Source: a virus
DNA length: 42,876 nt
Virus record (IMG/VR): IMGVR_UViG_3300037882_003687
Span: 1 to 42,876 of that record
Direction: 5' to 3' (one strand)
The notes below the pieces were generated by a model. That model searched no databases. It was given only the letters and a program-made list of their open reading frames with translations, and was not told the origin of the DNA. The stretch's first letter is position 1. The number at the start of each line of letters is the position of its first letter. Shown in pieces: positions 2,331 to 6,048 of the stretch. A program made the position numbers and the translations under genes.

Positions 2331-5111
2331 TTAAGCTAATAATGGCGTCATGAATCTAACGACTGAAGGTTCTTCATTAATCGGTCGACGTTTATTCATA
2401 ACGCTTGTGTTGTTATTGTTTACGACGTTACTTGAGTTGATTTGCTGCGACGAAGAAGTTGATCTAACCGAAGCAGCTGCAGCTTCATTCGCTTGTGTAT
2501 CGGCAGCTCTCATTGCGTCAGCTCTTATACTTTTTTGAGGAGATTCTGTGTCCATCGTTGGAGCTCCAGAAGTTTTGCCTCTGAATTCGTCTAAGCGATT
2601 CATCCAACCAGCATAAAATTCTCTTTGTGTTGGATCTGCAGCAACGATATCGTCATAGAAGGTTTTTCGAGTGTTAACCACATCGTCGTACAAAGCTTGA
2701 CCAGTCAGTCCTTTAGCTTCACCTTCTTTTACCCAACGAGCAGCTCGACCTGGACCATGATTCACGCCTGAATCGATTGCTAATTCTCTAAGAGCTTGAT
2801 CTTCAATTTTATCGAATGGTGTAATGTATTCTTTTCGATAGATTTCTCTTGCCGTTTCTTCGGTCAAATTTCGAACATCATCGACTGTAGCTTGTCGACC
2901 TAACCATCCAGACAACGTGCCTTGAGTGATACCCATATTTGTAGGACCGCCTTTGTCGTTTGGATTGTTGACAAACCCACCTTCTCTTCTTAAAATGTCA
3001 TCGATTACCTGCTCGGTCGATTTAGATTCTGAGGAACTGGTTCGTTTAGACGGTGTTTTTAATGAAGGAGCTGGAGTAGACTGTGTTCGGGTAGAAGCAG
3101 TAGGACTTGGAGTTCTTTGAGGAGCTGACGTCGGTTGATCAACCCCGATTCCTCGACCCATTGGGAACGAAGGAAATGTAGAAGACATGAAAGAAGAATT
3201 AAGCTGAATTCCTCGAGAATCTGTACCACCTCGTGCTGTTTTGATATCTTGGGCGATAGAAGATGGAAATGCCCAAGAAGGAATCCAATCTGGAATCATC
3301 CCTAAGAAAAATTCTTTAATTGACTCATCGACTCCTTTTAGCTTAGAAGCGACAAATCCTTTTGAATTTCCTGACAAGCCTCTGATTCCATCTCCAACAT
3401 TTTCAGCATGTTCGTTTATGGAGTTGATTAGGCCTGGAAGACTATTGTAGGCTTCTTTTGCTTCACGCTTGACTCGATCTACAGATGATGCCTGGAATTC
3501 ACCAGGCACAGCCATGATATCGATAACTCCATTGACAATTTTATTATTGGCTTCTAGTAAAGTTGACTTCAGCACTTTGCTGTTTTCATCTGTACCACTA
3601 AATGATTCAAATATCGAGTCTAAAATTCGAGAATCGCTTAACCAATCTTGAATTCTTTGTAGTTGTCCTAATAAGAAGAAATCAGCAAACCCTTTTAATC
3701 CTTGTAAAGCAGCTTCACTTAACGGAGCTCCTTCAAGATAACTTGAAACTCCATCATAAAGACCTTTAGCTACACCAGCAACAAACATCACTGGAAATGA
3801 AATAAGCTTTCCAAGACCCTTGAACATTAATTTGATGGATTTTGAAGCCATTCCTCCAACAGCACCAAGCATTCCAGCAAGGACACCACCCATTTTACCG
3901 ATACCAGCCGCAGCTTTAGCGACCAATCCAGCTCCTGGAAGTCTCATCATTAATCGACCGACTCCAGTAAAGAATCCACCTAATTTAGCAAGAGGACCTT
4001 TAAGCCAACTGAAACTTTTAAGGAATCCTCCTAATCCAGACTTGACTAAAATTAAATCAAGAAGCCAGTTACCAGTAAAACTCCCATCGCCTTGGCTTTT
4101 TATTTCTTCAGCCATATTTGACTGACCTTCAAGAGCCTTTTCAGAATTATCTGCTAACTTCTCCATAAGAGCAAGTTGCTTTCCTCTGAATGTATCGTTT
4201 TCTCTTTCGACTTCCTCAGATGGCATAGTTGCTTTGATTAGCTTTTCGATTTTCTCGACTGTTGTCATAGTTGCATGACTAGTGCCGAAAATCTCCTTGA
4301 GTATAGGAGCCATCGAGCCATTCATTGCGTCTTCAAGTTCAGCTTCCATGCCTTTAACGGCAGATTCAATGAACTCTTTTTCAACAGAAGATTTCTTAGG
4401 AGATTTTTCTTTTTCTGTGTCTTTAGCTAATTTCTCTTGGTCTTTAAGTTTCTTTTCGTCTTCTTTTTTCTTCTTCTCTTTTCTCTTTTTTCTTTCTTCT
4501 CGTTCTTTTTTCTGCTCTTCAGGAAATTCTTTAAGCGATTCAATTAGATCTTTTGCTAAATTGTCTTTTTCTTCTTGCTTATTTTCTTGATATTTTTGAA
4601 ATCGATTAACACCAAATCCAACTGCAGCGCCAAGCAAAGGATTTCTTGACGCAATACCTGAAGCAACTCCACCTAAAATAGGCAGAGCTCCTCTAAGCAT
4701 TTCAGTAAATCGATTTCCAAATCTTGAATTTTTCGATAATCCTTTCTGAGTTGATCGAATAAAATTCACCAGTTCGACTTTAGCAGCTTTTTGTTGCTTT
4801 GTATTCTCACTGACTAAAGGCAACAATTGTTCCATCGAAGCGATTTGTCTTAACATCGCTTTTTGAGATCGACCATCAGAAGTAATAGCTTTTGCTGCGA
4901 TCTCTTCGATATTCTTAAGGACTTTTTGACCAACTGAATTTAATTTTTCGGTTGTGTCTTTTGCTCCAGAAATTTTGCTAAGCGCTCTAGCAAGATCCTC
5001 ATTTCCAGATTGTTTAGAAACGATAGACAAACGACCCACACCAAGTTTAGATCCACCAAAATTTTGGGCTTTAATGAAATTTAAAACTTGGTCTTCGAAA
5101 TTTACTGCCAT
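2331..5111 (-). CDS. Tape-measure / tail hub protein with C-terminal GH108 muramidase domain
   Basis: At 926 aa this is the second largest protein in the window. It lies directly after the tail chaperone pair, the classical place of a tape-measure gene, and plays the role of T4 gp29 (590 aa). Features in order: helical N terminus; hydrophobic segment about 140-166; a Lys/Glu-rich coiled coil 173-240; Gly/Ala-rich hydrophobic helices about 345-450; a Pro/Ser/Thr linker 655-698; a GH108-type muramidase domain about 700-848; a polar tail. The muramidase is recognised by R-E-G-G-F-V-N-N-P-N-D-K-G-G-P-T with probable catalytic Glu710, N-M-G-I-T, and the helix L-A-I-D-S-G-V-N-H-G-P. It would cut peptidoglycan during DNA entry. 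The start overlaps the end of the frameshift extension by ten bases. Confidence 0.85.
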   Translation of the reverse strand: MAVNFEDQVLNFIKAQNFGGSKLGVGRLSIVSKQSGNEDLARALSKISGAKDTTEKLNSVGQKVLKNIEEIAAKAITSDGRSQKAMLRQIASMEQLLPLVSENTKQQKAAKVELVNFIRSTQKGLSKNSRFGNRFTEMLRGALPILGGVASGIASRNPLLGAAVGFGVNRFQKYQENKQEEKDNLAKDLIESLKEFPEEQKKEREERKKRKEKKKKEDEKKLKDQEKLAKDTEKEKSPKKSSVEKEFIESAVKGMEAELEDAMNGSMAPILKEIFGTSHATMTTVEKIEKLIKATMPSEEVERENDTFRGKQLALMEKLADNSEKALEGQSNMAEEIKSQGDGSFTGNWLLDLILVKSGLGGFLKSFSWLKGPLAKLGGFFTGVGRLMMRLPGAGLVAKAAAGIGKMGGVLAGMLGAVGGMASKSIKLMFKGLGKLISFPVMFVAGVAKGLYDGVSSYLEGAPLSEAALQGLKGFADFFLLGQLQRIQDWLSDSRILDSIFESFSGTDENSKVLKSTLLEANNKIVNGVIDIMAVPGEFQASSVDRVKREAKEAYNSLPGLINSINEHAENVGDGIRGLSGNSKGFVASKLKGVDESIKEFFLGMIPDWIPSWAFPSSIAQDIKTARGGTDSRGIQLNSSFMSSTFPSFPMGRGIGVDQPTSAPQRTPSPTASTRTQSTPAPSLKTPSKRTSSSESKSTEQVIDDILRREGGFVNNPNDKGGPTNMGITQGTLSGWLGRQATVDDVRNLTEETAREIYRKEYITPFDKIEDQALRELAIDSGVNHGPGRAARWVKEGEAKGLTGQALYDDVVNTRKTFYDDIVAADPTQREFYAGWMNRLDEFRGKTSGAPTMDTESPQKSIRADAMRAADTQANEAAAASVRSTSSSQQINSSNVVNNNNTSVMNKRRPINEEPSVVRFMTPLLA

Positions 5112-6048
5112 TGTCTTTGCCTATTTGCTGCTTCTATTTTTCGATTAATTTCTTTTTGAATTAACATCACCCAAAGTTCTCTCTCAAATGGTACCATCGC
5201 CTCGATTTCCGTAAGTGTTAGTCCCCAATTCAGCATTTCAAAATTTGTACTAAAAAAGGACCGGACGCTTTCATCACATACGGTTAGGTGAAAAAATCAG
5301 CAAGTCCTGTAAATTGAATGTCTTCTTTATGATCACACACTGGACAATGAAACTTAATCAAATGCCTTAATTGAGGATATTTTAGCCAGTAATCTTCTAA
5401 AATTGAATCAAATGTAGACCGAGGTAAAGAATCAAAAAATTCATCTAAATTCTCTCGAGTGTAATCATTATAGCTGATACCTTTATCGGTATCCATGATT
5501 GATTCAATAAGATCTTTAAACATTTCGATCACAGAATCCTCTGATTTTGAATTATTCATAGAGGTTAATACATGATCGATATTAGGATTTTTCATTCGAA
5601 TTATTAATGGAGTTGTTCCAATCTTAATATCTCGAGTATATCCTTCAAGTGGCGTAGTCGTAATTACATTTAAGTCGATTGTGTGCCGAACCTTAGTTCC
5701 ACATCTAACAAATTTCTTATCACCTTCAGGAGAATCTTTATCAAGAACCATATTATTGCAGGTGAAATAAACATCTTGAGTTTCACCTTTTGAAATCGTG
5801 CGGGTCTGTAAAAAGATGTATTCTAAATCAGCAATAGGAATTTCTGAACAATTCACTTTTCCCATTGTGCAATTTGTCATTGAATCTAAAATGATTCGAA
5901 GAATTTCTTGTGGACTTGATCCTTCTTTCATCATCAAGAAAAGTTTTTCTTCCTTGACGCTAAAGGCTCTAATCACAATAGAATTCCCTGAAATCGGCAA
6001 TGTGATTTTCTTTGTTGGCAGCCAATCATTGATTTTTGGTAATGACAT
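5102..6048 (-). CDS. Predicted -1 frameshift product: long tail chaperone (gp26 plus 62-aa extension)
   Basis: The gp26-like frame runs from 6048 to a T_TTT_TTC slippery heptamer (minus strand, 5296-5290), one codon before its final ACC and the TAA. A -1 slip there continues with CAC at 5290 and reads 62 more codons to a TAA at 5104-5102, giving 315 aa in all. The extension includes M-L-N-W-G-L-T-L-T-E-I-E-A-M and F-E-R-E-L-W-V-M-L-I-Q-K-E-I, which looks like real coding sequence and like the W/ERE-type second chaperone segment of other tailed phages. Read alone from ATG 5236 (44 aa) it has no ribosome binding site. Overlapping tail chaperones made by frameshift just before the tape measure are a well-established arrangement (for example lambda G/GT). 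Confidence 0.7.
5284..6048 (-). CDS. gp26: Tail assembly chaperone / baseplate hub protein, T4 gp26-like
   Basis: A 254-aa protein of the T4 gp26 type (T4_baseplate family). The N-terminal V-I-R-A-F-S-V-K-E-E-K-L-F-L-M matches the 'RPFxVKEEKLLLMA' segment I recall for the family. Cysteines at 97 and 116 and the C-terminal H-C-P-V-C-D-H (235, 238) suggest a small zinc-binding element. The C terminus G-L-A-D-F-F is also typical, and those Phe codons are themselves the slippery site for the frameshifted longer product. It is somewhat longer than T4 gp26 (208 aa). A TAAATAA box lies upstream (minus strand, about 6071-6077) and ACGGAG serves as ribosome binding site. It is probably needed for assembly and may not be a major virion component. 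Confidence 0.8.
   Translation of the reverse strand: MSLPKINDWLPTKKITLPISGNSIVIRAFSVKEEKLFLMMKEGSSPQEILRIILDSMTNCTMGKVNCSEIPIADLEYIFLQTRTISKGETQDVYFTCNNMVLDKDSPEGDKKFVRCGTKVRHTIDLNVITTTPLEGYTRDIKIGTTPLIIRMKNPNIDHVLTSMNNSKSEDSVIEMFKDLIESIMDTDKGISYNDYTRENLDEFFDSLPRSTFDSILEDYWLKYPQLRHLIKFHCPVCDHKEDIQFTGLADFFT
5290..5296 (-). promoter_or_regulatory. Slippery heptamer T TTT TTC, programmed -1 frameshift candidate
   Basis: On the minus strand the gp26 codons GAT TTT TTC ACC TAA contain the classical X XXY YYZ heptamer T TTT TTC in the right phase. The -1 frame is open for 62 codons beyond it and ends inside the first codons of the tape-measure gene. I see only a weak possible stem 3' of it (ACCG at 5289 region with CGGT about 20 bases later). 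Confidence 0.7.

Follow-up and report, generated by a model that had tools for sequence, protein, structure and literature searches.

Tail assembly chaperones of long-tailed phages

In phage lambda, ribosomes shift by -1 close to the end of the gene for the short tail assembly chaperone, which immediately precedes the tape-measure gene. The slippery site is G GGA AAG. This G/T frameshift gives a short and a long form of the chaperone, gpG and gpGT, and is described as widely conserved in long-tailed phages except T4 (2016 review). A likewise placed junction is present in the viral DNA analysed here, all 42,876 nucleotides of IMG/VR record IMGVR_UViG_3300037882_003687 (the window). Lambda differs in the site itself: the window would slip at T TTT TTC, and the two sequences are not comparable.

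T4-like phages provide the closest systems. Their tail assembly chaperones were reportedly identified by Vladimirov, Gautam and Davidson (Virology, 2022), whose abstract is said to describe frameshifting as conserved in several T4-like groups and T4 as using genes 26 and 51. Two passages citing Vladimirov et al. 2022 touch on the same subject: one in the Adele paper (PMC12846349) mentions polyT -1 signals in the TAC-N genes of T4-like phages, and one in the PRFect paper mentions T4-like phages in which a short gene is accompanied by a long, fused one. Set against the gp26/gp51 chaperones as these passages present them, the window has the same two proteins in the same order before a tape-measure gene. 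Its lineage is divergent: the best gp26 identity is about 33%, and the phage collection contains no close relative by DNA. Searches with gp26 peptides found no close relative in viral contigs or in genome contigs. The device is not new in kind, because the T4-like chaperones have reportedly been identified already by Vladimirov et al. 2022. The window is a divergent new case of a frameshifted chaperone already reported for T4 relatives.

The gp26–gp51 junction of the window

The gp26-type gene occupies positions 5284–6048 on the minus strand and encodes 254 residues. It matches PF12322 with E 1e-47 and 163 bits (cut-off 24.5) and phrog_150 with E 3e-47. Read directly on the minus strand, its 3' end is GGA CTT GCT GAT TTT TTC ACC TAA, encoding G-L-A-D-F-F-T, with the stop codon TAA at 5286–5284. 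The in-phase heptamer T TTT TTC lies at 5296–5290. Its TTT and TTC are zero-frame gp26 codons, followed by one sense codon (ACC) and then the stop. From the heptamer on, the -1 frame (5102–5296, minus strand) translates as FFHLTVCDESVRSFFSTNFEMLNWGLTLTEIEAMVPFERELWVMLIQKEINRKIEAANRQRQWQ, two phenylalanines and 62 further codons, and terminates at TAA 5104–5102. Directly downstream is a tape-measure type gene (2331–5111, minus strand), whose first 10 bases also belong to the -1 frame. Its ATG is at 5111–5109, so that the -1 frame stop falls among its first codons. A tape-measure role of the product is suggested by gene order, position and size. This 926-residue open reading frame also carries a lysozyme-like domain (PF05838, residues 704–786, E 1e-21).

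Profile searches identify the hidden frame as the gp51 of T4-type phages, and thus as no new protein. With a 63-residue query, hmmscan against PHROGs matches the extension to phrog_634, the 'baseplate hub assembly catalyst' (gp51), at E 5e-11 over profile positions 56–116 of 121. The extension also matches positions 232–280 of the gp26 family phrog_150 (E 1e-4). Since these are the last 50 or so positions of that profile, the match suggests that some phrog_150 members are already joined with the extension. A sequence search of the PDB gave chance matches only. It is very probable that gp26 is the short chaperone (TAC-N) and gp26–gp51 the frameshifted long form (TAC-NC).

A preliminary description of this locus had placed the heptamer in the correct phase near the end of gp26, and had noted a -1 frame open for 62 codons with its stop inside the first tape-measure codons. 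Direct reading confirms both. The same description took the frame for a second chaperone. A real coding extension it is; as gp51, it is the C-terminal part (TAC-C) of the long chaperone form.

Structure prediction adds a likeness at the level of fold. The AlphaFold2 model of gp26 (61 sequences) has a pLDDT of 93. For this model, VIA-align ranks the HK97 tail assembly chaperone first (PDB 2ob9; Z 8.1, 85 residues, 4.5 Å), clear of the rows below, and B. subtilis YqbN (3klu) second. The HK97-like part comprises gp26 residues 1–87, with 12% identity; the second gp26 domain (90–254) is absent from the HK97 protein. Foldseek alone finds nothing significant for the model in the PDB, so the predicted resemblance of the N-terminal fold to the HK97 chaperone supports the assignment but does not prove it. 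For the gp51 part, a helical hairpin is predicted (pLDDT 86). Its Foldseek matches among viral models are weak; gp51 of phage ZZ1 comes first, at E 0.29 with an rmsd of 1.0 across 44 residues.

Conservation of the slippery site

Viral contigs were scanned with the gp26 proteins of S-SM1, Melnitz, SFP10, nt-1 and phiM7. Together with phage records, these scans gave 187 distinct complete junctions, which are related sequences, so that the counts are not independent events. T TTT TTN is present in phase in 173 of them. The remaining 14 comprise 13 junctions of Ackermannviridae type and that of Vibrio phage K362. Outside these types the heptamer is therefore found in 173 of 173 junctions, which is the outcome of the comparison with related phages that the preliminary description had proposed. 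The seventh base is C in 128 junctions, T in 23, A in 21 and G in one. Between heptamer and stop lie zero or one sense codon in 164 of the 173, and zero to eight codons across all. Additional junctions with the heptamer come from Rhizobium IC12, DSL-LC02 and Aswh_1. All five loci found via the neighbouring gp53 gene, and hence not picked by gp26, have T TTT TTC.

Selection evidently acts on the nucleotides of the heptamer, because the preceding codon always ends in T, leucine is tolerated and the Phe-Phe context is rare elsewhere. (i) The pair is preceded by S, N, A, D, T or H, and the codon of this residue ends in T in 173 of 173 junctions; elsewhere in the same genes, T-ending codons make up 28–77% for those residues. 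(ii) The last residue of the pair is leucine (T TTT TTA) rather than phenylalanine in 21 junctions. (iii) Elsewhere in the same genes, Phe-Phe stands in a T TTT TTN context in only five of 204 cases, and in-phase TTTTTTN occurs at nine of 40,693 codon sites.

Genes 26 and 51 of T4

In T4, genes 26 and 51 are encoded on opposite strands. Residues 1–201 of T4 gp51 match PF12322 (E 4e-52), and hhalign aligns residues 200–245 with the profile of the hidden frame (E 5e-6). This second segment is 28% identical to the window's own extension, in register with the junction phenylalanine. T4 gp26 has no match to the hidden-frame profile. On these alignments, T4 gp51 is a gp26-like domain plus the extension: the window's fusion in one frame. 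With both parts in gp51 and no extension match in gp26, each of the two forms, short and long, has its own gene in T4. The window has one gene and a slippery site; T4 differs, with two separate genes and no frameshift. T4 gp26 ends R-G-L-K-E-F-F-E-L-L, in which GAG TTC TTT is not slippery. A place covering at least 80% of T4 gp51 is present in 1,334 phage records. Most T4-type phages outside T4's own group would then keep the orthodox frameshift, with T4 having the fusion as one gene. This agrees with what the 2022 report on T4-like chaperones is said to contain.

Selection on the -1 frame and competing explanations

Substitutions in relatives show that selection at the protein level acts on their -1 frame immediately past the heptamer. 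Among the related sequences compared, codons 3–19 past the heptamer have 786, 566 and 1701 substitutions at -1-frame positions 1, 2 and 3, respectively; upstream of the heptamer, the pattern fits the zero frame. The eighth residue of the -1 frame is histidine in 164 of 173 junctions, and residues 18–19 are nearly always Asn-Phe. For the 62 loci whose first 19 codons contain neither ATG nor GTG nor TTG, the corresponding numbers are 659, 518 and 1602. With no start codon of its own, a frame selected at the protein level can only be reached from gp26. The explanation that we consider very likely, and by far the best reading of the junction, is the one advanced in the preliminary description: a programmed -1 ribosomal frameshift joins gp26 to the hidden frame, giving gp26 and a gp26-extension fusion.

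Public annotation implies something else, namely that gp51 is a separate protein with its own ribosome binding site or with termination–reinitiation at the gp26 stop. A separate gp51 gene is annotated in S-SM1, where it starts six bases past the gp26 stop in the -1 frame, and also in phiM7, nt-1 and others. An ATG does overlap or closely follow the gp26 stop in some relatives, and in nt-1, Moby, phiM7 and K362 it overlaps the stop in the -1 frame. Separate initiation is nevertheless improbable, as it leaves the 62 loci without an early start codon unexplained. In the window itself, no GTG or TTG precedes the first in-frame ATG, which comes 20 codons after the first heptamer codon and sits inside the conserved part of gp51. 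Moreover, a separately started gp51 would have no need of an in-phase heptamer, and in T4 the gp51 protein includes a gp26-like domain. In other records, gp51 is given a late start or is missed entirely (SFP10, ACG-2014b). If the frameshift is accepted, the gp51 start is wrong or the gene missing in many public records, and it should be annotated as a joined CDS.

Slippage of RNA polymerase, yielding mRNAs that join both frames, would also act on a run of T, and a few relatives have eight (Melnitz). The window and most of its relatives have only six (the heptamer ends in C in 128 of 173), and bacterial transcriptional slippage takes place at longer runs, of about nine A or T (frameshifting review). 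Polymerase slippage is also indifferent to codon phase, yet the site is in phase in every one of the 173 junctions with a stop zero to eight codons on. We regard it as very unlikely, more so than separate initiation. Least credible, to the point of being negligible, is that the frame is open by chance or that one gene was split by a sequencing or assembly error. Dinucleotide shuffles of this stretch contain a 62-codon open frame in 0.9% of cases, and in-phase X XXY YYZ heptamers number 46 per 12,014 codon sites in the window's reading frames, about 0.4% per site. Either one alone could be luck; homology to gp51 could not. The identical split with the heptamer recurs, furthermore, across many isolates and metagenomes, in 173 distinct junctions, and this conservation in relatives refutes a chance frame or sequencing error.

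Proposed mechanism

Programmed -1 frameshifting at this site would proceed as follows. (i) Most ribosomes would terminate at the TAA at 5286–5284 and release gp26, the short tail assembly chaperone. (ii) A minority, with Phe-tRNAs on TTT TTC, would slip back one base onto TTT TTT. (iii) These ribosomes would read 62 more codons to give gp26–gp51, the long chaperone. (iv) By analogy with lambda gpG and gpGT, the product of the adjacent tape-measure gene would be coated by many short and few long copies, and tail tube subunits would be brought in by the gp51 part. Sequence and comparison show the heptamer and its phase, a -1 coding frame that is conserved, homology with gp51 and a gp26 fold resembling a chaperone; we infer that slippage takes place in this phage and at what rate, and that the products act as chaperones. 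The action of gp26 and gp26–gp51 in tail assembly would follow that of the lambda proteins, and the gp26-extension fusion would be made in a fixed ratio to gp26. A tail assembly chaperone would bind the tape measure and be missing from the mature particle; the record of the Ackermannviridae phage LIMEstone1 notes its gp26 as a confirmed structural protein.

Possible stimulators

The region around the junction has further features that may promote slippage. When 8-mers along the junction region of relatives are scored against the anti-Shine–Dalgarno sequence, the strongest pairing is found just before the slip site: the 8-mer that ends 7 nt upstream averages -6.1 kcal/mol, compared with about +2 to -3 kcal/mol across the preceding 80 nt. 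In most relatives, a Shine–Dalgarno-like GAGG(A/G) lies 9–14 nt upstream of the heptamer. This motif is GAR GGN, coding for Glu-Gly. GAG is used 43 times in 73, compared with the 20 that the codon usage of each gene predicts (z 6.2); GGA and GGG are likewise enriched. The window retains only AGGA (5305–5308, minus strand), 9–12 nt before the heptamer, a weak element with an anti-Shine–Dalgarno duplex of -4.0 kcal/mol.

Downstream, a weak hairpin just past the gp26 stop (5260–5284, minus strand; -7.1 kcal/mol, z -1.5) is a possible 3' stimulator in the window. In relatives, structure at 12–72 nt is on average more stable than in shuffles (mean z -1.7), with strong hairpins only in some cyanophage groups. 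No consensus RNA structure common to all relatives was found with a model that does not cover pseudoknots. Both the upstream and the downstream elements are possible stimulators.

The arrangement recalls dnaX of E. coli, which has an upstream Shine–Dalgarno-like stimulator at such spacing. The window has the in-phase X XXY YYZ heptamer of a dnaX-type cassette (T TTT TTC, 5296–5290). The relatives share the Shine–Dalgarno-like motif about 10 nt upstream of the heptamer, and some also have a hairpin a few nt downstream. The frameshift product differs in being the longer one here, and the window's own stimulators are weak. The conserved Shine–Dalgarno-like element offers a way to test what sets the ratio of short to long form.

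The end of gp26 and the Ackermannviridae junctions

The preliminary description suggested that the end motif of gp26 may be kept because of the frameshift, an idea that finds partial support. In favour of this are the leucine of 21 relatives, the invariably T-ending codon before the pair, and the preference of the upstream Glu and Gly codons for Shine–Dalgarno-like spellings. Against it, T4 gp26 retains R-G-L-K-E-F-F without a slippery site. A stronger version, to which we give somewhat less than an even chance, is that the C-terminal E-G-L-x-x-F-F is kept largely by the RNA as a frameshift cassette and that the Ackermannviridae have replaced the site. The Glu-Gly would then spell the Shine–Dalgarno-like GAGGGA and the Phe-Phe the slip site, and the replacement would be G GTT TTC in phiMAM1 or ATT TTC in other Ackermannviridae.

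Instead of the heptamer, SFP10, LIMEstone1, phiEa2809, phiMAM1 and relatives have RTT TTC ATY TRA; the LIMEstone1, phiEa2809 and phiMAM1 junctions were additional ones. The phiMAM1 site reads G GTT TTC, which we take to be the frameshift site of T7 gene 10, and ATT TTC stands in the others. Across the gp26 stop of these Ackermannviridae, the -1 peptide FHL[IM]FE[IVT]DL is conserved. In the literature searched, neither this atypical site nor the Shine–Dalgarno-like element with its codon bias was found; both may be in the 2022 work of Vladimirov et al. The junction of K362 is CTT TTC AAG TAATGG, and this phage may use the ATG that overlaps the gp26 stop.

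Junctions in related phages

The T6 heptamer is absent from the Ackermannviridae gp26/gp51 junctions (positions 3200-3440 of L003, the SFP10 record, and 1900-2100, 1890-2100 and 1900-2150 of the related records L266, L267 and L268, respectively), where the -1 frame running over the gp26 stop is still conserved and the junction reads RTT TTC ATY TRA. In phiMAM1 the site is G GTT TTC, of the type known from T7 gene 10; LIMEstone1 has in its place TAATG, a start overlapping the stop.

In one group of cyanophages (L163:2205-2260, L151:2211-2260 and L144), a strong hairpin, GTATGGCTCATAC...GAGTCATAC, with a folding energy as low as -21 kcal/mol, begins about 5 nt 3' of the heptamer. 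This hairpin is likely to be a 3' frameshift stimulator.

Annotation and associated proteins

Public records omit gp51 or give it an internal ATG start: ACG-2014b (L273:1611-1792), S-RIM8 (L272:1662) and SFP10 (L003:3244-3763). No joined gp26-gp51 CDS occurs in the public records examined, these three among them.

A glycosyl hydrolase 108 lysozyme-like domain lies at residues 704-786, close to the C terminus of the tape-measure type protein (window 2331-5111).

A further but weak structural match of the gp26 model (window 5284-6048), at Z 5.1, is 5ir0, the ORF19 protein from a PICI-like element of Vibrio cholerae; it is possible that a satellite encodes a chaperone-like protein.
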